From NCBI RefSeq assembly GCF_001907675.1, contig NZ_MPNT01000024.1, forward strand, positions 19,605 through 83,604: DNA of 64,000 nt. Reading direction: 5' to 3'. The stretch comes from Mycobacterium paraffinicum. GTDB taxonomy: Bacteria; Actinomycetota; Actinomycetes; Mycobacteriales; Mycobacteriaceae. The notes beneath the pieces are model-generated. The model saw only the letters and a list, made by a program, of their open reading frames with translations. It was not told where the DNA came from and made no database searches. Made by a program: the position numbers and the translations under genes. Each line of letters starts with the position of its first letter. The stretch's first letter is position 1. Of this stretch, positions 24,999-34,173 are shown piece by piece.

Positions 24999-26269
24999 GC
25001 CACGTTGGCCTGGCGGCGCGTCGCGTACACCTCGGCCAGGAATTGCTCGACGGCGACCGCGGTGTGCACCGCGCGTGCCGAGCCGAAGATGTCGAAAGCG
25101 TGTTGGGTGAACGGCAATTCGGCGTACACGACGGACTGGGTGCTGACCTTCCGCAGTCGTTCGACGAACGCGCGCGCCTGCTCGACGGGCACCAGCGAGT
25201 CGTTGCGGCCGTGCAGGACGAAGAATGGGGGAGCGTCGGCGGAAACGTGGTTGACCGGCGACGCGGTGATGAACGGCTGCATGTTCGTCGAGGGCCGTTG
25301 CTTGACAACGGATTTGACTAGCAGCGCCGGCATCATCGGATGCATCGCGTCGTTGAACCGGGTGAAGTCGTAGATGCCGTAGAACGGCACGGCCGCCTGC
25401 ACCCGCGTGTCGGCGTCCTCGAAGCCGGGCTGAAACTCCGGCAGGTTGGGCGTGAGCGCGGCCAGCGACGAGAGGTGGCCGCCGGCCGAACCGCCGGTGA
25501 TGGCGATGAATTCGGGATCGCCGCCGTACTCGGCGATGTGCGCCTTGACCCACGCCAGGGCGCGCTTGACGTCGACGATGTGGTCGGGCCAGGTGTTGCG
25601 CGGGCTGTGCCGGTAGTTGATCGACACGCAGACCCAGCCCAACTCCGCGAGGTGGCTCATCAACGGATGGGCTTGTCCGCGTTTGTTTCCCGTCGTCCAG
25701 GCGCCGCCCGGGATCTGGAAGAGCACCGGGGCCTTGCCGGTGGGGTCCAGATCGGGACGACGCCAGATGTCCAGGTAATTGGCGCTGCCGTATTCCCCGT
25801 AGCTGATGTTGGAGTCGTGGGCGTAGTCGCGATAGATGCGCATCATCCGCAACACCCCCGGCGTCTTGGCGGTGCCGCCGCCCGCCGGCCGGCGCCACAG
25901 ATCTCCCGATTCGGTGAGCCGCGACGCGCCCAGGCCCTGGTCCAACGCCTCCGTCAGCGGAATGTTGGCCTGGTGCCCGGCGCGGCTGAAGTTCAGCAGG
26001 CCCAGCGCGGAAACCCCCGCCACCGTCCACGCCGCGAATCGCACCGGCCGGGTGAGGCGTCGGGCCGTCAACGCCAAACCGCCGAGCTGGCTGACGAGCG
26101 TTTGCAGGGGCAACTCGGTGACGACCACGCCGAACATGAACGAGAACAGCGAGGCGTATCCGCTGCGCGCCAACGGCCGGTAGGCGTTGAGCGTGGACAC
26201 CGCGGTCACCGCCGTGACCACGAGCGACCCAATCTGCCGGATGACATGCATGATTCGAGCTGTCCGCAT
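24995..26269 (-). CDS. lipM: LipM-like esterase/lipase
   Basis: 424 aa. The N-terminal 90 residues carry two to three hydrophobic segments, so it is membrane-anchored. The catalytic domain is an HSL-type alpha/beta hydrolase with GGSAGG (nucleophile Ser261), a PGGAWTTG oxyanion loop (187-194), Asp in HGRNDSLVP and His in TQHAFD. Overall it resembles mycobacterial LipM (Rv2284); LipQ is a related alternative. It probably hydrolyses short or medium-chain esters at the membrane. Confidence 0.78.
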   Translation of the reverse strand: MRTARIMHVIRQIGSLVVTAVTAVSTLNAYRPLARSGYASLFSFMFGVVVTELPLQTLVSQLGGLALTARRLTRPVRFAAWTVAGVSALGLLNFSRAGHQANIPLTEALDQGLGASRLTESGDLWRRPAGGGTAKTPGVLRMMRIYRDYAHDSNISYGEYGSANYLDIWRRPDLDPTGKAPVLFQIPGGAWTTGNKRGQAHPLMSHLAELGWVCVSINYRHSPRNTWPDHIVDVKRALAWVKAHIAEYGGDPEFIAITGGSAGGHLSSLAALTPNLPEFQPGFEDADTRVQAAVPFYGIYDFTRFNDAMHPMMPALLVKSVVKQRPSTNMQPFITASPVNHVSADAPPFFVLHGRNDSLVPVEQARAFVERLRKVSTQSVVYAELPFTQHAFDIFGSARAVHTAVAVEQFLAEVYATRRQANVA

Positions 26270-26382
26270 GGGCTCACCTTACGAGGTGAGGTTTTGGGAT
26301 CGGTAGGCGCGCGTACGGTGCTTACTTACCGCACACGACCGCTGCGTCGAGCAGCGCCCCGGACGGAACGGACCCAGCATCG

Positions 26383-27051
26383 ATGACCATAGCCAGGAAG
26401 GCTCCGATCGCGGCGGCCGCCTGTGTCCTGACCGCGTTGGCGTGCGGCTGGACGGCCAACGCGCAATCGGCGTGCGCCGACCTCGGCGGAACCGTCGACG
26501 AACACCAGATCTGCCGGGGGCACATCGTGACGACCAACTACACGCTCGACCTGAGCTTTCCCGTCGACTATCCCGACCAGCAGCCGCTCGCCGACTACGT
26601 GACTCACACCCGAGACGAGTGGGCCGACGACGCGAAGGCACATCCGCCCACCGGCCGGGCGTACCTGCTGACCATCACGGGGAAGGCGTACCGGTCCGGC
26701 ACGCCCAATGCCGGGACCCAATCCGTGGTGATCGACACCAACCAGGACCTCGGCGCCCACCCGGTGACTTCGTACAAGGCGTTCAACTACGACCTGGGCA
26801 AGCGCGCGCCCATCACCTTCGACACGCTGTTCAAGCCGGGCTCCAACCCGCTGAACGTGCTCAACCCGATCGTCCGGCGCGAGCTGGGTCCACTGCCGTT
26901 CGGCGACCCCGGGGTCGACGCGTACCAGAACTTCGCGATCACCGACGACGCCGTGATCTTCTTCTTCAGCCAGGGTGAGGTGCTGGCGCAGGTCGACGGA
27001 CCCCAGCGGCTGTCGGTACCGCGTACCGAACTCGCATCGCTGCTGGCGTGA
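26383..27051 (+). CDS. Secreted MPT64/TB22.2-like protein
   Basis: 222 aa with a signal peptide cleaved near ANAQS (about residue 28). The mature protein follows the MPT64 family closely: CADLGGTVDEHQIC (disulfide pair), FPVDYPDQQPLADYV, SYKAFNYDLGKRAPITFDTL, YQNFAITDDAVIFFF and a VPRTELASLLA end. It matches TB22.2 (Rv3036c) better than MPT64 itself as I recall them. Exported beta-grasp/DUF3298-type antigen with no known enzyme activity. Confidence 0.88.
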   Translation: MTIARKAPIAAAACVLTALACGWTANAQSACADLGGTVDEHQICRGHIVTTNYTLDLSFPVDYPDQQPLADYVTHTRDEWADDAKAHPPTGRAYLLTITGKAYRSGTPNAGTQSVVIDTNQDLGAHPVTSYKAFNYDLGKRAPITFDTLFKPGSNPLNVLNPIVRRELGPLPFGDPGVDAYQNFAITDDAVIFFFSQGEVLAQVDGPQRLSVPRTELASLLA

Positions 27052-27057
27052 CGCGGC

Positions 27058-27384
27058 CTAGGTGGCCTCGGCCCGGCTTTCGAGGTTCTTGACCGGGGCG
27101 GGGTCGTTCTCGGTCAGCCCGACCTTCGCGGCGCCGCCCGGGGAGCCCAGTTCGGCGAAGAAGTCGGCGTTGATCTGGGTGTACTCGCTGTACTCGCCCG
27201 GGACGTCGTCCTCGTAATAGATGGACTCCACCGGGCACACCGGCTCGCAGGCGCCGCAGTCGACGCACTCGTCGGGGTGGATGTAGAGCATCCGCGCGCC
27301 CTCATAGATGCAGTCGACGGGACATTCCTCGATGCACGCCTTGTCCTTGATGTCGACGCAGGGTTCGGCGATCACGTATGCCAC
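27058..27384 (-). CDS. fdxC: 7Fe ferredoxin FdxC-like
   Basis: 108 aa ferredoxin. Cys 9, 17, 21, 25 and Cys 40, 43, 46, 50 give the [3Fe-4S]/[4Fe-4S] pattern (CIEECPVDC and CVDCGACEPVCP). The body and tail (TQINADFFAELGSPGGA, then VGLTENDP) match M. tuberculosis FdxC (Rv1177) more than FdxA. GTG start with a GGAAGGA ribosome-binding site. It is divergent from the LysR gene and shares its upstream region with the LysR box at 27498-27524. NirA is ferredoxin-dependent, so this protein is a plausible electron donor to it (inference). Confidence 0.9.
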   Translation of the reverse strand: MAYVIAEPCVDIKDKACIEECPVDCIYEGARMLYIHPDECVDCGACEPVCPVESIYYEDDVPGEYSEYTQINADFFAELGSPGGAAKVGLTENDPAPVKNLESRAEAT

Positions 27385-27497
27385 GAGCGTTGTCCTTCCT
27401 TGTCTGGCTGGCTAATTTAGCGCGGCCGATGCGCTACCGGCCAGGGTCATCCTTCCCATCGTTCTCGCCGCCACCCGGCGCGAGTAGGGCACGCGGC

Positions 27498-27524
27498 GTT
27501 GTGGAGTCACAAGCTATCGTTGTG
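27498..27524. promoter_or_regulatory. Candidate LysR box (copy 1)
   Basis: GTTGTG-GAGT-CACAA-GCTATC(with G)-GTTGTG: the two GTTGTG units start 21 bp apart, at 27498 and 27519. The same spacing and sequence pattern occurs at 31827-31853 in front of nirA. It lies between the divergent fdxC and LysR genes. Confidence 0.65.
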
Positions 27525-27554
27525 GCACACGAATCGATTGTGATGTGATCAGCC

Positions 27555-28490
27555 ATGCCGCTCAGCCCCCGGATGCCGGAGCTCGCCTCGTTCGAGGTGT
27601 TTCTGGCGATCGCCGAGACCGGCAGCCTGGGCCGCGCCGCGCGCGAACTCGGGCTGACGCAGCAGGCGATTTCCCGGCGGCTCGCATCGATGGAGGCGCA
27701 GATCGGGGTGACGCTGGCGGTGCGGACCACGCGCGGTTCGCAGCTGACGCCGGCGGGCCTGGTCGTCGCGGACTGGGCGAGACGATTGCTCGAGGTCGCC
27801 ACGGAGATCGACGCCGGCATGGGTTCGCTGCGCAAGGAGGGCCGCGAGCGGGTCCGGGTGGCGGCTTCGCAGACGATCTCCGAGCAGCTGATGCCGCACT
27901 GGCTGTTGTCGCTGCAGGCCGAGGCGACGCGACGCGGCGGCTCTGCGCCGCAGGTGATTTTGACGGCCACCAACAGCGAGCACGCCATCGCCGCGGTCCG
28001 CGACGGCAGCGTCGATCTCGGCTTCGTCGAGAACCCCGGCACGCCAACGGGATTGGGCACCTGCGTGGTGGGGCAGGACGAACTGGTGATCGTGGTGCCG
28101 CCGGGCCACAAGTGGACCCGACGTAGCGTGACCGCCCGCGAGCTGGCGCAGACGCCATTGGTCGCGCGCGAACCGCATTCGGGCATCCGCGATTCGCTGA
28201 CGGTTGCGCTGCGCCGCGTGCTGGGCGACGACATGGAACAGGCTGCGCCGGTGCTGGAGTTGACGTCGGCCGCCGCGATGCGCGCGGCCGTTCTTGCCGG
28301 CGCGGGACCGGCGGCGATGAGCCGGCTGGCGGTGGCCGACGACCTCGCGGTCGGGCGGCTGAGCGCGGTCACCATCCCGAAGTTGGACCTGCGCCGCAAG
28401 TTTCGCGCCATCTGGGTGGGTGGGCGCACGCCGCCGGCCGGGGCGGTGCGAGACATGGTGAGCCACATCGTCAGCCGGGTGAAAGCCTAA
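27555..28490 (+). CDS. LysR-family regulator, likely of sulfite-reduction genes
   Basis: 311 aa. N-terminal winged HTH (AARELGLTQQAISRRLASME, about residues 33-52) followed by a periplasmic-binding-protein-like effector domain. It lies between ferredoxin fdxC and the leftward nirA-cysH-chelatase operon, with which it converges at its 3' end. Its upstream region carries an inverted/direct repeat that is duplicated in front of nirA, so it is the best candidate activator of both (a functional counterpart of CysB/Cbl). The effector is unknown; O-acetylserine or a sulfur compound is possible. Confidence 0.9.
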   Translation: MPLSPRMPELASFEVFLAIAETGSLGRAARELGLTQQAISRRLASMEAQIGVTLAVRTTRGSQLTPAGLVVADWARRLLEVATEIDAGMGSLRKEGRERVRVAASQTISEQLMPHWLLSLQAEATRRGGSAPQVILTATNSEHAIAAVRDGSVDLGFVENPGTPTGLGTCVVGQDELVIVVPPGHKWTRRSVTARELAQTPLVAREPHSGIRDSLTVALRRVLGDDMEQAAPVLELTSAAAMRAAVLAGAGPAAMSRLAVADDLAVGRLSAVTIPKLDLRRKFRAIWVGGRTPPAGAVRDMVSHIVSRVKA

Positions 28491-28535
28491 ACCGTCCCGC
28501 GAGTGTCGATTTGTCGTGAGGTTTCGGGGGCGGAT

Positions 28536-29252
28536 TCAGGCGGCGGCGTCGGCTTCCAGCGCCCCGTCGTAGCGGTCGAGCACCGTCTCGGCGACGAGCC
28601 GATGCGCGCCGAGCGGCGCGGCCATCGGAATGCCGTTGTCGCGCGCGAAGGTTGAGACGCCGTCGGTGAGCAGTCCCGGCGCCAGGAACCAGGGCGCGAT
28701 GACCAGCCGGCGCGCACCGCGGCGGCGCAGGTGGGCGGCGGCTTTGTGGACCGATGCCTCCGGTCGGGTGGCGAACGCCGTCGTCGCCCCGGCCCACCGG
28801 GTGCCGACGGCCAGCCTGGACGCCACCTTCGCGGTGCGCACGTTCGCGGCGGCGTTCGACGAGCCGATGGCGACGACCATGACCCCCAGCTCGTCGTCGT
28901 CCGGGGAAACCCCGACGTCGCCGAGGCGTTCGCGCAGCACGGACACCAGCCGCTCGTCCTCGCCGAGGACGTCGGCCTGCCGGATGCCGTGGGCCCCGGC
29001 CTCGGCGATCTGCGTCGGGATGTCCAGGCGCGCGTGGTAGGCACTGGCCAGCAGGAACGGGGCAACGACCGCGCGGCGGCTGTCCGGCAGGCCGGCCAGC
29101 ACGTCGACGAAGTTCGGCTCGTTGAGCTCGAGGAACGCCAGTCGCACGTCGAGGTCGGGGCGCATGCTCGCCAGCCGATCGGCCAGCGCTCGCGCGTTGG
29201 CGCCCGAGCGCGGGTCCCGGCTGCCGTGGGCGGTGAGTACGAGCGTGCTCAT
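28536..29252 (-). CDS. Sirohydrochlorin chelatase (CbiX/SirB-like)
   Basis: 238 aa from ATG 29252, which overlaps the cysH stop codon by 4 bp (ATGA). The N-terminal TAHGSRDPRSGANARALA has the catalytic His, and a second similar half (VVAIGSSNAAANV, LVIAPWFLAPG) is typical of the two-lobed CbiX fold. It inserts Fe2+ (or Co2+) into sirohydrochlorin. In this operon it would make the sirohaem that NirA needs. It is equivalent to M. tuberculosis Rv2393 (che1) in position and length. Confidence 0.88.
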   Translation of the reverse strand: MSTLVLTAHGSRDPRSGANARALADRLASMRPDLDVRLAFLELNEPNFVDVLAGLPDSRRAVVAPFLLASAYHARLDIPTQIAEAGAHGIRQADVLGEDERLVSVLRERLGDVGVSPDDDELGVMVVAIGSSNAAANVRTAKVASRLAVGTRWAGATTAFATRPEASVHKAAAHLRRRGARRLVIAPWFLAPGLLTDGVSTFARDNGIPMAAPLGAHRLVAETVLDRYDGALEADAAA

Positions 29253-29986
29253 GATGCGTGCAACCCGCATTCGATCTTGTTTCGTCCCCTCCAGCGCCCG
29301 CTGCGAGGATCGTCACCCTCGGCCGGCTTGCTGGTGCAGGGCGCGCAGCCGATGGACGGGTAGCCCTCCTCGACCAGCGGGTTGACCAACACGTTGTTGC
29401 GCTGGATGTAGTCCTGGACGTCGTCGTCGGTCCAGGCCGCGATCGGGTTGACCTTGATGACCTTGAACGACTCGTCGAAGCTGATCAGCGGCGCGTCGGC
29501 GCGGGTGGCGGCCTCCACCCGGCGCAGCCCGCTCACCCAGGCGGCGTAGCCGCGCAGCGCGCGGCGCAGGGGGAGAACCTTGCGCAGGCGGCAGCATTCG
29601 TTGGGGTCGCGGGCGAACAGGTCCTTGCCCCGCAGCTCGTCCTGCTCGGCGACGGTGTGCTCGGGCGTGACGTTGAGCAAGTGGATGTCGTACACGGACT
29701 CGACCGCGTCGCGGGTGCCGATCGTTTCGGCGAAGTGGTAGCCGGTGTCCAGGAACAGCACCGGCACGCCCGGGCGCACGGCGGACGCGAGCGAAATCAC
29801 CACGGCGTCTTGCATATTGGCCGCCACCACATATTTGCAGTTGGCTCCTTCGCGGGGGCCGTCGACGCCGCCGAAGTGTTCGTCGGTCCAGCGCAGGACA
29901 TCGGTGGCTTCGGCGTCCGCCATCTCGGCCGCGCCGCGTTCGGCCAGTTTGCGCAGCTGCTCTTCGGTGAAGTTCATCGCCACCAT
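29249..29986 (-). CDS. cysH: APS/PAPS reductase CysH
   Basis: 245 aa. Reduces adenylyl sulfate to sulfite. Two cysteine pairs, Cys131-Cys132 (ECCRLRK) and Cys214/Cys217 (GCAPCT), bind the [4Fe-4S] cluster that marks the APS-specific type, and Cys240 in IECGLH is the catalytic thiol. SxDxG-like LFLDTGYHF near 77-85 belongs to the nucleotide site. Second gene of the operon, 16 bp after nirA and coupled to the chelatase gene. A second in-frame ATG at 29977 is possible. Confidence 0.95.
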   Translation of the reverse strand: MVAMNFTEEQLRKLAERGAAEMADAEATDVLRWTDEHFGGVDGPREGANCKYVVAANMQDAVVISLASAVRPGVPVLFLDTGYHFAETIGTRDAVESVYDIHLLNVTPEHTVAEQDELRGKDLFARDPNECCRLRKVLPLRRALRGYAAWVSGLRRVEAATRADAPLISFDESFKVIKVNPIAAWTDDDVQDYIQRNNVLVNPLVEEGYPSIGCAPCTSKPAEGDDPRSGRWRGRNKIECGLHAS

Positions 29987-30002
29987 GGCGGGTCCTCAGC
30001 TC

Positions 30003-31670
30003 CTATCGCAGATCGGCCTCGTCGGCGCGCAGGGCCCAGGCGGCGAAACGCTCATCGCCGTCGCGCTGCTCGAGGAACTTGCGGGTCACGCGGTCGATGT
30101 AGTCGCCGAGCTCGTCGCTGGTCACCTTGTGCTGGCGCAACTTTCGGCCGAAGCCACTGGCTTCGCCGAGGCCGCCGCCCAGGTGGACCTGGAAGCCTTC
30201 GACGGAGTTGCCCTGGCCGTCGTCGATCCACTGGCCTTTGAAGCCGATGTCGGCGACCTGAATGCGCGCGCACGAGTTGGGGCAGCCGTTGAGGTGGACG
30301 CTGATCGGCACGTCGAGCTTGGAGTCGACGTCGGCCAGCCGCTGCTCCAGCTCGGGCACCAAAGTCTGTGTGCGGACGCGGGTTTCGGCGAAGGACAGCT
30401 TGCAGAACTCGATGCCGGTGCAGGCCATGGTGTTCTTGCGCCACGCGGAGGGGCGCGATGGCAGGCCCAGCGCGTCCAGGGCGGCGACGGTCTCGTCGAC
30501 TTTGTCGTCGGGCACGTCGAGGATGACCAGCTTCTGGAACGGGGTCAGCCGGGCGCGGTCGGAGCCGATCTTCTCCATCAGGTCGGCCACCGCCGACAGG
30601 GTGGTGCCCGAAACGCGTCCGGCGATCGGGGCGACGCCAATCGCGTTGAGCCCGTTCTTGATCTTCTGCACACCGACGTGGTCGATGGTGTGCTTGACCG
30701 GTGCGGGGGCCGGGCCGTCGATCAGCCGGCGGTTCAGGTATTCCTGTTCGAGAACCTCACGGAACTTCTCGACGCCCCAGTCCTTGATCAGGAACTTCAG
30801 CCGCGCCTTGGCGCGCATCCGCCGGTAGCCGTAGTCACGGAACAGCCGGGTCACGGCCTCCCACACGTCGGGCACCTCGTCCAGCGGCACCCACACCCCG
30901 ACCCGCTGGGCCAGCATCGGGTTGGTCGACAGGCCGCCGCCCACCCACAGGTCCAGGCCGGGGCCGTGCTCGGGGTGGTTGACGCCGATGAACGCGACGT
31001 CGTGGGTTTCGTGGGAGACGTCCTGCAGGCCCGACACCGCGGTTTTGTATTTGCGCGGGAGGTTGGCGTACTCGGGGTTGTTCAGGGAGCGCCGGACGAT
31101 CTCGTCGATCGCGGGGGTCGGGTCGAGTACCTCGTCGAGCGCGTCGCCGGCCAGCGGCGACCCGTGGATGCCACGCGGGCAGTCGCCGCAGGCCTCGGTG
31201 GTCTGCAGGCCCACTTCGTCGAGGCGGCGCCAGATCTCGGGCACGTCCTCGATGCGGATCCAGTGCAGCTGCAGGTTTTCCCGGTCGCTGATGTCGGCGG
31301 TGTCGCGGGCGAATTCCGTCGAGATCTGGCCCAAGGTGCGCATCGAGCGCGCCGTCAACGGCTTGCCGTCGGTGCGGACCCGCATCATGAAGTACTTGGC
31401 TTCGATCTTGTCGGTGTTGTCGTCACCGGTCCAGCTGCCGTCGTAACCCTGCTCGCGTTGCGTGTACAGGCCCATCCAGCGGAAGCGCCCGCGCAGGTCG
31501 GAGTGGTCGATGCTGTCGAAGCCCTGCTTGGCGTAGACGTTGACGATGCGGTCGCGCACGTTCAGCGGCGCGTCGTCGTTCTTGATCTTCTCGGTGTCGT
31601 TGAGCGGTTCGCGGTCACCCAGTGCCCACTGGCCTTCGCTGCGGGTCTTGGCGGGGCGTGCTGCGGTCAT
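30003..31670 (-). CDS. nirA: Ferredoxin-dependent sulfite reductase NirA
   Basis: 555 aa. Six-electron reduction of sulfite to sulfide for cysteine synthesis. The sirohaem/[4Fe-4S] ligands are in MACTGIEFCKLSF and NGCPNSCARIQ (two Cys each). Tyr69 and Cys161 (in TEACGDCPRGIHG) fall at exactly the positions of the Tyr-Cys covalent link reported for M. tuberculosis NirA, so this is sulfite rather than nitrite reductase. AGGAG precedes the ATG. First gene of nirA-cysH-chelatase. Confidence 0.95.
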   Translation of the reverse strand: MTAARPAKTRSEGQWALGDREPLNDTEKIKNDDAPLNVRDRIVNVYAKQGFDSIDHSDLRGRFRWMGLYTQREQGYDGSWTGDDNTDKIEAKYFMMRVRTDGKPLTARSMRTLGQISTEFARDTADISDRENLQLHWIRIEDVPEIWRRLDEVGLQTTEACGDCPRGIHGSPLAGDALDEVLDPTPAIDEIVRRSLNNPEYANLPRKYKTAVSGLQDVSHETHDVAFIGVNHPEHGPGLDLWVGGGLSTNPMLAQRVGVWVPLDEVPDVWEAVTRLFRDYGYRRMRAKARLKFLIKDWGVEKFREVLEQEYLNRRLIDGPAPAPVKHTIDHVGVQKIKNGLNAIGVAPIAGRVSGTTLSAVADLMEKIGSDRARLTPFQKLVILDVPDDKVDETVAALDALGLPSRPSAWRKNTMACTGIEFCKLSFAETRVRTQTLVPELEQRLADVDSKLDVPISVHLNGCPNSCARIQVADIGFKGQWIDDGQGNSVEGFQVHLGGGLGEASGFGRKLRQHKVTSDELGDYIDRVTRKFLEQRDGDERFAAWALRADEADLR

Positions 31671-31735
31671 GATGTCTCCTTCGCGGTGCGGAACGGCTTT
31701 GGGCTGCTGGCCGCGGCATCGACGCGATGATGTTG

Positions 31736-31780
31736 TCAGTCAGAGGTGAGAGCGGGCGCTTCGTTGCGCCCACGTCTCAT
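31736..31780 (-). CDS. Leader peptide ORF upstream of nirA (14 aa)
   Basis: ATG at 31780 to TGA at 31736 encodes MRRGRNEAPALTSD, ending 65 bp before the nirA start. A -10-like CACTAT (31787-31792) sits six bases before the ATG, so the message would be leaderless. The coding bases include a hairpin (GTGGGCGC-AACGAA-GCGCCCGC, 31752-31773). It contains no cysteine, so it is not of the known polycysteine attenuator type of mycobacteria. Expression is unproven. Confidence 0.35.
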   Translation of the reverse strand: MRRGRNEAPALTSD

Positions 31781-31786
31781 GACTTC

Positions 31787-31792
31787 ATAGTG
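31787..31792 (-). promoter_or_regulatory. Possible nirA -10 element
   Basis: CACTAT on the minus strand, six bases before the leader ATG at 31780. Only three of six positions match TATAAT. The call rests mostly on the position of the LysR box about 60 bp upstream of the implied start. Confidence 0.3.
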
Positions 31793-31826
31793 CCGAGGCC
31801 AGGCGTGCGGGAGTAGAGGTCGCGCC

Positions 31827-31853
31827 GTTGTGAGGGCACAACCGTTGGTTGTG
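31827..31853. promoter_or_regulatory. Candidate LysR box (copy 2, nirA promoter)
   Basis: GTTGTG-AGGG-CACAAC-CGTTG-GTTGTG; the GTTGTG units start at 31827 and 31848, again 21 bp apart. It is centred about 60 bp upstream of the putative nirA transcript start at 31780, the normal place for a LysR activator. The rest of the 311-bp gap up to 31981 shows nothing else I can name. Confidence 0.65.
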
Positions 31854-31981
31854 TGCGCGGGTTCACTGATCGACGATCCCCTCGAATTCGCCGGCAAAAT
31901 TCCGCGCCGCAAAACCGAGGTCGCCCTAGGTCGGCGGGCGTAGCATCAGCTCACGCTCAACGGCGAGCGAGGGCAAACAAC

Positions 31982-32797
31982 ATGAACGACACCCACACCG
32001 ACTCGACCGACGTCGACAAATGGGACCGCGATCTGACCGAGCACGTCGTCGCGCTGACCCGGCCGATCGTCAAAAGGTATTTCCGTTCCGAGGTCCGCGG
32101 CCTGGACAACATTCCGGAAGGCCCGTCGCTGGTGGTGGGCAACCATTCCGGCGGCATGTTCACGTTCGACCTGTCGGTGTTCGCCGTCGACTATTACGAC
32201 ACCTACGGCTACGACCGACCCCTCTACGCGCTGGCGTTCGACACCATCTTCTCCGGACCGGCCGCCGAGTTCTTCCGGCGCACCGGGGTGATCCGGGCAA
32301 CGCGCGAGAACGCCGCGAAGGCGCTGGCCTCGGGCGCGGTCGTGCTGGTCTTCCCGGGCGGCGACTACGACGTGTACCGGCCGACCTTGCAGGAGAATGT
32401 GATCGACTTCGACGGCCGGACCGGCTACATCACCACGGCCCTGGAGGCGAACGTTCCGATCGTGCCGGCCGTCTCGATCGGGGGGCAGGAGAGCCAGCTG
32501 TTCCTGACGCGTGGGCAGTGGCTGGCGCGGCTGCTCCGGCTGACCAAGTTCGAGCGCCGGTTCTTCCGAACGAACATCATGCCGGTCACGTTTGGTTTTC
32601 CGTTCGGGTTCAGCGTTCTCGCGCCGGTCAACATGCCGCTGCCCACCAAGATCGTCACCGAGGTGTTGCCGCCGATCGACCTGGGCCACTTCGGCGACGC
32701 TCCCGACATCAAGCGGCTCGATGCGCACGTGCGCTGGACCATGCGGAAGGGACTCAAAGCCCTTGCCGCCCAACGCCATTTCCCGGTTATCGGTTAA
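31982..32797 (+). CDS. PlsC-like 1-acyl-glycerol-phosphate acyltransferase
   Basis: 271 aa from ATG 31982. LPLAT motif I is GNHSGGMFTFD (a longer-spaced variant of NHx4D, near residue 55-65), motif III-like FPGGDYDVYRP near 124-134, and IVPAVSIGG near 160. No obvious TM helix beyond a central hydrophobic strand. It probably esterifies a lysophospholipid or related acceptor at the inner membrane. Its stop shares TTAA with the convergent oxidase gene. Confidence 0.83.
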   Translation: MNDTHTDSTDVDKWDRDLTEHVVALTRPIVKRYFRSEVRGLDNIPEGPSLVVGNHSGGMFTFDLSVFAVDYYDTYGYDRPLYALAFDTIFSGPAAEFFRRTGVIRATRENAAKALASGAVVLVFPGGDYDVYRPTLQENVIDFDGRTGYITTALEANVPIVPAVSIGGQESQLFLTRGQWLARLLRLTKFERRFFRTNIMPVTFGFPFGFSVLAPVNMPLPTKIVTEVLPPIDLGHFGDAPDIKRLDAHVRWTMRKGLKALAAQRHFPVIG

Positions 32798-34173
32798 CCG
32801 GCCGCGAACACCACATCGGGGTTGAGGATGCCCGCCGGGTCGAAGCTGTGCTTGATGCGGCGCATCAGGTCGACCTTGACCGGGTCTTCGAGTTCGAGGT
32901 AGTAGGGGGTCTTGGCGCGGCCCAGGCCGTGCTCGCCGGAGATCGCGCCACCCAATTCCATTGCCAGCGCGAAGATGTCGGTCAGCAGCTTCTTGCGCGT
33001 GTCGGGGTCCTTGCAGAAGATGGCCAGGTGCACGTTGCCGTCGCCGGCGTGCCCGCAACCGGCCGCGGCGCCGCCGGCGGCAGCCGCCAGGCCGCGCACG
33101 GCCGAGAGGAATTTGGGCATCGCGCCGCGCGGCACCACCGTGTCGATGAGGTCGTCGGCGCCGACCGCCTTCAACGTCCAGAACGCCTTCTCGCGCGCCT
33201 CGATCAGCTTGCGGGCCGAACCGCCCTCGAGCACGTAGGCGTCCACGGCGCCCAGCTCGGCCAGCAGCTCGCCGGCGTTCTCGACGTCCTCGTCCAGCCG
33301 GTCGGCGGACCGGTTCTCAAGTGCCACAACCAGATAGGCGTCGCAACTGTCGCGGACGTTGTCGGGGATGCCCAGCTCGAGGTTTTGTTGGTGCACGAGC
33401 GCGGCCATCGTCACGTTGTCGATGTACTCCAGGATGTAGGGCGCGAGGCCGCTGCCCACGACCTTGGGGACCGCCGACATGATCTGGTCGAAGTCGGCGA
33501 ACGGGGCGAGCAGGGCCGCGTTGTGGTCGAGGCGCGGATGTAGCTTGACGGTCACCTCGGTGGCCAGGGCCAGGGTGCCCTCGGAGCCGACGATGAGCTG
33601 GGTCAGGTCGTAGCCGGTGGAGATCTTGGCGATCTTGCCGCCGGTGCGGATCAGTTCGCCCGTCGGCAGCGCCGCCTGCAGCCCGAGCACGTTGTGGCGG
33701 GCGATGCCGTACTTGACCGCGTTCATGCCGCCGGCGTTGGTGCCGACGTTGCCGCCGACGCTGGACGACAGCTCGCCCGGGTGGACCATGTAGCGCAGGC
33801 CGGTGTCGGCGGTCGCGGCGTCCAGCTCGGTGAGCGTGACCCCGGGCTGGACGACGGCGACCTGGTTGGTGGTGTCGACCTCGAGCACGGCGTTCATTCG
33901 TTCGAAGGAGATGAGCAGCCCGTCGGCCCGCGGGATCGCGGCGCCCGACAGGCCGGTGCCCGAGCCGCGTGCCGTCACCGGCACGCCACTGTCCGAGGCG
34001 GCCTTCAGTAGCTGCGAAACCGCTTCCGCCGAGGCCGGTTTGGCGACGTACGCCGGCCGTTGCGGCGGTTTCGTCAGCACCTCGTCATGCCAGTAGTCCT
34101 CGGGGATGGTGTCGCCGGTCAGCAGGTTGTGCTGGCCGACGATTTCGGCGAATCGTGCCGTCATGTCGCTCAT
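32794..34173 (-). CDS. FAD-linked glycolate/D-lactate oxidase family protein
   Basis: 459 aa of the GlcD/vanillyl-alcohol-oxidase superfamily. The FAD-binding PCMH domain includes TARGSGTGLSGAAIP near residues 66-80 and HPGELSSSVGGNVGTNAGG near 130-148. The C-terminal metal/substrate site is GCGHAGDGNVHL near 355-366, and SGEHGLGRAK follows. It oxidises a 2-hydroxyacid such as D-lactate, glycolate or 2-hydroxyglutarate. Good ribosome-binding site (GAAGGTGAGG) before ATG 34173. Confidence 0.9.
   Translation of the reverse strand: MSDMTARFAEIVGQHNLLTGDTIPEDYWHDEVLTKPPQRPAYVAKPASAEAVSQLLKAASDSGVPVTARGSGTGLSGAAIPRADGLLISFERMNAVLEVDTTNQVAVVQPGVTLTELDAATADTGLRYMVHPGELSSSVGGNVGTNAGGMNAVKYGIARHNVLGLQAALPTGELIRTGGKIAKISTGYDLTQLIVGSEGTLALATEVTVKLHPRLDHNAALLAPFADFDQIMSAVPKVVGSGLAPYILEYIDNVTMAALVHQQNLELGIPDNVRDSCDAYLVVALENRSADRLDEDVENAGELLAELGAVDAYVLEGGSARKLIEAREKAFWTLKAVGADDLIDTVVPRGAMPKFLSAVRGLAAAAGGAAAGCGHAGDGNVHLAIFCKDPDTRKKLLTDIFALAMELGGAISGEHGLGRAKTPYYLELEDPVKVDLMRRIKHSFDPAGILNPDVVFAAG

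Follow-up and report, generated by a model that had tools for sequence, protein, structure and literature searches.

A conserved candidate operator pairs a YeiE/FinR-like LysR-type regulator with a probable second sulfite reductase gene set in Mycobacterium paraffinicum and its relatives

In a stretch of 64,000 nucleotides of DNA from the slow grower Mycobacterium paraffinicum (contig NZ_MPNT01000024.1, positions 19,605 to 83,604 of the forward strand; hereafter the window), one three-part sequence stands between a LysR-type regulator gene (lysR) and a divergent ferredoxin gene (fdxC), and stands again before an operon that encodes a siroheme sulfite reductase (nirA), CysH and a chelatase. Which genes does this regulator control, and which signal does it read? 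An earlier note on this DNA had proposed a self-contained sulfite-reduction regulon with its own CysB-like activator. This interpretation is partly supported: the regulon, with fdxC and nirA as predicted targets, stands, and the CysB-like label does not. We consider it probable that the regulator is a YeiE/FinR-type activator, most likely sulfite-sensing, that serves a second sulfite reductase set and its electron supply via a conserved operator.

The sequence is GTTGTG-N4-CACAA-N6-GTTGTG, with two exact matches in the window, at 27498-27524 (copy 1) and 31827-31853 (copy 2), both on the + strand. These coordinates had been given correctly in the earlier note, with the last spacer written as N7; in that form the pattern has no match in the window. 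In both copies the third half-site starts 21 bp after the first, as was also reported there. By chance, 0.12 matches are expected at up to three mismatches, and none of 100 shuffled sequences held two or more. The binding sites of LysR-type regulators are dyads with a T-N11-A core, and the TTGTG-N4-CACAA of the box contains T-N11-A twice. The box is conserved, recurring before lysR/fdxC and before nirA in relatives while its spacers drift, and it looks like a real operator.

The box also travels with the regulator. A scan of genome contigs based on the LysR protein gave 42 loci (41 mycobacterial), and the closest named relatives of the protein belong to Mycobacterium sp. HNNTM2301 (98% identity) and E183 (97%). 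With each distinct LysR protein of 96 loci counted once, a 15-letter box (at most one mismatch, within about 4 kb of lysR) accompanies 44/44 proteins that are at least 71% identical to that of the window, 33/33 at 61-70%, 1/12 at 55-60% and 0/2 below 50%. These loci hold 135 boxes, versus 0 for the reversed pattern. In a sample of 198 genomes of the genus, 68 have the LysR; a 17-letter pattern, with one mismatch allowed, is found in 41 genomes, 39 of them among these 68 (Fisher p 2e-20), and the 41 include every one of the 27 close-LysR genomes (at least 71%). With CTAC added, this extended pattern occurs in 54 genomes, 53 of which have the LysR (Fisher p 4e-33), and the reversed control gives 0. 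It had been anticipated that such a genome search might find the pattern at many unrelated promoters; because the extended pattern is nearly confined to genomes with the LysR and its reversed form has no hits, this is not what we see.

A common promoter layout follows the box. Read toward its target, the unit is CACAAC-N6-TTGTG-N4-CACAAC, with CTAC 11 or 12 bases past the last CACAA and then a -10-like element that ends about 40 bases on; a good -35 element is not evident by eye. The 84 distinct box-gene rows comprise nirA (32), pntA (17), TDT (10), flavoprotein (9), fdxC (7), fprA (4), SUOX (4) and cysH (1). In these rows CTA is in place in 80/84 and the AT of the -10-like element in 78/84. 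One orientation is common to 80/83 target rows; the three oppositely oriented ones (L079, L082 and L155; L and G numbers label loci and genomes) each read an already counted triple half-site a second time, with overlap, and the L155 box seems to serve both directions. Thirteen boxes have no assigned target: ten of them have CTA and nine both elements, and neither element is found in L079 and L082, the second readings, or in L085.

The window promoters fit this layout. The predicted fdxC promoter (27458-27487, - strand) consists of CTAC at 27484-27487 and a -10-like AACGAT at 27458-27463, both spaced from the box as is constant in the family, and the predicted nirA promoter (31787-31816, - strand) of CTAC at 31813-31816 and CACTAT at 31787-31792, with a start near 31780. 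Because of this fit, copy 1, which points to fdxC when read on the - strand, most likely controls fdxC, and lysR diverges from it. The lysR start codon is 30 bp to the right of copy 1, and since the copy thus lies just upstream of this divergent gene, lysR probably controls itself as well. Copy 2 points to nirA and occupies about -47 to -73 of the predicted transcription start; its end lies about 47 bp before that start and, relative to the nirA ATG, about 157 bp upstream. The earlier placement of copy 2 about 60 bp upstream of a start is therefore right for the box centre and the transcription start, but not for the ATG.

The regulator itself (27555-28490, + strand) has the two LysR-type domains (Pfam PF00126, HTH_1, 71.4 bits; PF03466, LysR_substrate, 117.5 bits). 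Compared with four Escherichia coli regulators (YeiE, CysB, Cbl and Nac), it is nearest to YeiE (110 bits, 32% identity), versus 36.2 bits for CysB and 25.4 bits for Cbl, which puts it outside the CysB/Cbl subfamily. A first structure model, built from 24 close sequences, had a predicted local distance difference test score (pLDDT) of 44.3 and was not used; a second, from 40 sequences, reached 90.3. In the fold comparison with this second model, VIA-align places YeiE domains at the top, tied with ACIAD0746 of Acinetobacter. Pocket residues of YeiE are kept; its Glu145, the residue changed in PDB entry 7fdf (titled YeiE E145S), is Glu159 in the window protein and is retained in 65/65 other mycobacterial rows. 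Both sequence and fold are closer to YeiE than to CysB, within a broad YeiE/FinR-like group, and we reject the CysB-like label on the bit scores and the weaker fold likeness. The protein is, by these comparisons, kin to YeiE. In a LysR tree the proteins group largely by target; the tree is silent on the order of YeiE, CysB and Nac because all three are on very long branches.

Regulators of this kind are described in other bacteria. According to excerpts of PMC12880088, YeiE is a sulfite-binding regulator of a sulfite reductase, and FinR is a YeiE homolog whose binding is altered by sulfite. The targets of YeiE named in such excerpts are cysJI and yeiH, and the window protein, at the identity given above, falls far below the NCBIfam YeiE cut-off. 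In excerpts of PMC5302815, Pseudomonas aeruginosa FinR is divergent from fprA with three alternating half-sites between them; the box, at -46 to -83 of fprA, sits shortly before the fprA -35 and overlaps the promoter of finR. This arrangement is found in relatives of the window (for example L019) but not in the window, which has no fprA between fdxC and lysR. The likeness to FinR is one of published description; the FinR half-site is TATCCA rather than TTGTG, and the mycobacterial regulon adds a second nirA-cysH-che set and pntA. CysL of Bacillus subtilis, described in an excerpt of PMC5322559 as a LysR protein that activates a sulfite reductase operon, is alike in function, and one 83% identical relative of our regulator carries the source name 'CysJI operon transcriptional activator'. 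CysB and Cbl share the LysR fold and sulfur-gene targets, but their sequence scores are far lower.

The gene picture in the window is as the earlier note had it, with fdxC and lysR beside copy 1 and lysR converging on che-cysH-nirA (28536-31670, - strand). The product of nirA (30003-31670, - strand) is a ferredoxin-dependent siroheme sulfite reductase, and scores 1014 bits against M. tuberculosis NirA (1zj8), which we take to be a sulfite reductase; in relatives this gene is a second copy. Behind it are cysH (29249-29986, - strand), an adenylylsulfate/phosphoadenylylsulfate reductase by gene call and family match, and che (28536-29270, - strand), a CbiX-type chelatase that may supply siroheme to NirA. 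In 14 loci (L009-L011, L013-L018, L020, L021, L032, L036 and L040) the stretch from nirA to the chelatase gene yields no cysH match, and the nirA box is kept. The FdxA-type actinobacterial ferredoxin gene fdxC (27058-27384, - strand) lies directly behind copy 1, with no fprA between it and lysR. Many relatives have fprA between fdxC and the box (for example L019, L027, L030 and L034), and the L019 product scores 745 bits against M. tuberculosis FprA (1lqt). Genome G068 has two lysR copies (L200 and L201), one adjoining fprA and one adjoining nirA, each with a box. The only Rfam match in 26000-33000, to guanidine-III inside fdxC, was below threshold (20.4 bits, cut-off 36) and was dropped.

In relatives the box extends to the transhydrogenase gene pntA. 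A search of nine relatives that allowed two mismatches placed another site, with 0 or 1 mismatch, about 190 bp ahead of pntA in five of them. Across the 198 genomes, sites before pntA (at most one mismatch, confirmed in fetched sequence) were found in 21/27 close-LysR genomes plus G056. A PntA search in 23 genomes gave one match in 22 and two in the other; three genomes whose best match was only 45-47% identical were left out of the upstream inspection, and in the 20 regions inspected directly the box is present in 6/11 close-LysR genomes and 1/9 others (G056). We thus predict pntA as a third target in relatives, so that the supply of reduced nicotinamide adenine dinucleotide phosphate (NADPH), ferredoxin reductase, ferredoxin and sulfite reductase would form one regulon.

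Sister clades keep the box and swap the neighbour, which can be a SLAC1/TDT transporter, a SorA/SUOX-like molybdoprotein or a flavoprotein; one genome has a second lysR adjoining fprA. Some SLAC1-family proteins, such as yeast Ssu1, export sulfite, and the putative targets appear to share the theme of sulfite handling, namely to reduce, export or oxidise it. The flavoprotein family occurs repeatedly behind the box (L155:5301-6497, L152:3170-4264, L280:1609-2838 and L283:1990-3060). Its members in L155 and L152 match Pyr_redox_2/3 weakly, that of L155 has no NCBIfam name, and the L280 and L283 boxes are on stretches without a lysR match; perhaps this family is a new sulfite-handling enzyme. A small predicted protein is encoded beside the boxes that adjoin the flavoprotein gene (L152:6834-7340 and L153:6600-7004) and is presumably DUF202-like. 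In L182, L184 and L185 a gene that looks sulfatase-like by eye follows lysR on the same strand, with the box upstream of lysR.

The two nirA copies differ in what precedes them. NirA was found in 194/198 genomes; 27 have two or more matches, and 25 of these are among the 27 close-LysR genomes. The two close-LysR exceptions are G055, whose cluster has cysH but no nirA, and G008, where the window-type copy is the only one; two NirA without a close LysR are present in G016 and G148. Even with three mismatches allowed, the box is absent from all 20 fetched regions of housekeeping-type nirA. A short open reading frame ending in a CSCxC run is present in 18 of these 20 (L207-L222, L224 and L226, with a conserved RRHIDLKRVCSCxC-type peptide) and in 0/39 window-type nirA leaders. 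Excerpts of PMC9031893 describe leaderless, cysteine-responsive poly-cysteine attenuators in M. smegmatis, where short open reading frames with cysteine runs control operons; such a frame stands before the housekeeping nirA but is absent from the window-type leader. In L207 the genes adjoin what appears by eye to be a sulfate-type ABC transporter. A leaderless short open reading frame before the window nirA was considered as a conserved element and set aside, its start codon not being kept in relatives by eye.

The 5' end of the predicted nirA mRNA may also form a hairpin (31748-31778, - strand), which shows compensatory changes in hand-picked relatives. In 22 leaders, hand-picked from 35 distinct ones with near-duplicates and some non-forming or gap-needing leaders omitted (among them L006, L007, L028, L030 and L035), pairing is kept in 93.6% of cells, and in 15 cells both sides have changed, values that were each reached in 0/500 shuffles; the number of pairs changed on both sides is not above shuffles (172/500). 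RNAalifold on all 35 gives a weak consensus (-6.0); 18 of the 35 fold at z <= -2 and three at z > 0 (mean z -2.0). The hairpin is a possible second control at the RNA level.

Several points weigh against a sulfite-sensing YeiE-type regulator with this regulon. The regulator scores 147 bits with the NCBIfam YeiE equivalog NF040889 (cut-off 480), outside its membership, and slightly more (150.9 bits) with a model for a selenium-associated LysR. Foldseek orders full-length ACIAD0746 and CcmR first and a YeiE domain only at rank 19. The counterpart of Glu145 is also present in CysB and Cbl, so Glu159 cannot tell a sulfite sensor from one of sulfate or O-acetylserine. The reversed 17-letter pattern has chance matches, up to two per genome at one mismatch, and at two mismatches there are several genomes in which it exceeds the true pattern; because it too matches randomly, we discount two-mismatch matches, and single ones such as that in G035 may be chance. 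Rows from related species make the counts other than independent events. The pntA box is missing in 5/11 inspected close-LysR genomes and is present in G056, where the LysR was not found. Since matches to the SorA and TDT models stayed under the cut-offs, the exporter and sulfite-oxidase names hold at family level only. For the window's own strain, both the second nirA and the control of pntA are extrapolated from relatives.

Could the regulator instead be a CysB-like activator that responds to the need for cysteine, through O-acetylserine or sulfide, and turns on sulfate assimilation? The cysH gene within the nirA operon and the pocket Ser/Thr and Glu residues common to CysB would fit. However, likeness to CysB is weaker in both sequence and fold, the sister clades have an exporter or sulfite-oxidase-like gene rather than assimilation genes, the cysteine-type leader belongs to the housekeeping nirA, and the 14 loci lacking a cysH match keep nirA and its box; we regard this explanation as unlikely. 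Equally improbable in our view is a FinR-type redox switch, activated by oxidants rather than sulfite, in which induction of ferredoxin, NADPH and NirA restores redox balance. Here fprA, fdxC and pntA are redox genes, and P. aeruginosa FinR was reported to activate fprA after paraquat and hypochlorite (PMC5302815), but 24 aligned close LysR relatives share no invariant or nearly invariant cysteine, and exporter and sulfite-oxidase-like targets misfit. Nitrite as the signal, with NirA as a nitrite reductase, is very unlikely: the best NCBIfam match of NirA is ferredoxin--nitrite reductase (below cut-off) and the M. tuberculosis structure was deposited under a nitrite reductase name, but cysH is in the operon, sister targets are sulfite-type, and the window NirA keeps Tyr69 and Cys161 of M. 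tuberculosis NirA, presumably marks of its sulfite reductase site. That another regulator binds the boxes and the LysR is a bystander would suit G056 but is hardly credible, given that 53 of 54 extended-pattern genomes have the LysR and that the two stay paired across several gene contexts.

In the sulfite-sensing YeiE/FinR-type model, a LysR multimer would bind the three alternating half-sites at about -47 to -73 and switch on promoters that have the fixed CTAC and -10-like element. Its targets in the window would be fdxC via copy 1 and nirA-cysH-che via copy 2, and the regulon of relatives would add fprA (before fdxC) and pntA. Excess sulfite could then induce the second sulfite reductase plus the whole electron route, with PntAB making NADPH, electrons passing to FprA, FdxC and finally NirA, and siroheme coming from Che.

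Sulfite regulators of the YeiE/FinR kind are known from other bacteria, and the mycobacterial case is new as far as we searched. A 2011 review states that, for the sulfur metabolism of M. tuberculosis, no counterparts of the regulators CysB and Cbl were known at that time (PMC3141025), and a literature search, judged by titles and abstract openings, gave no mycobacterial LysR regulator of sulfite reduction. For many nontuberculous mycobacteria, the present analysis names a candidate regulator and its predicted targets, defines the operator exactly and describes the promoter layout; it also links transhydrogenase with sulfite reduction and suggests a response to sulfite stress. We lean towards a mycobacterial family of sulfite-sensing LysR proteins that would use one promoter grammar, with an output that depends on the clade (reduction, export or oxidation), and a role is hinted for the unnamed flavoprotein family. 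In slow growers, the duplicated NirA enzymes would be divided between two control logics, cysteine-run attenuation for one copy and sulfite induction for the other.

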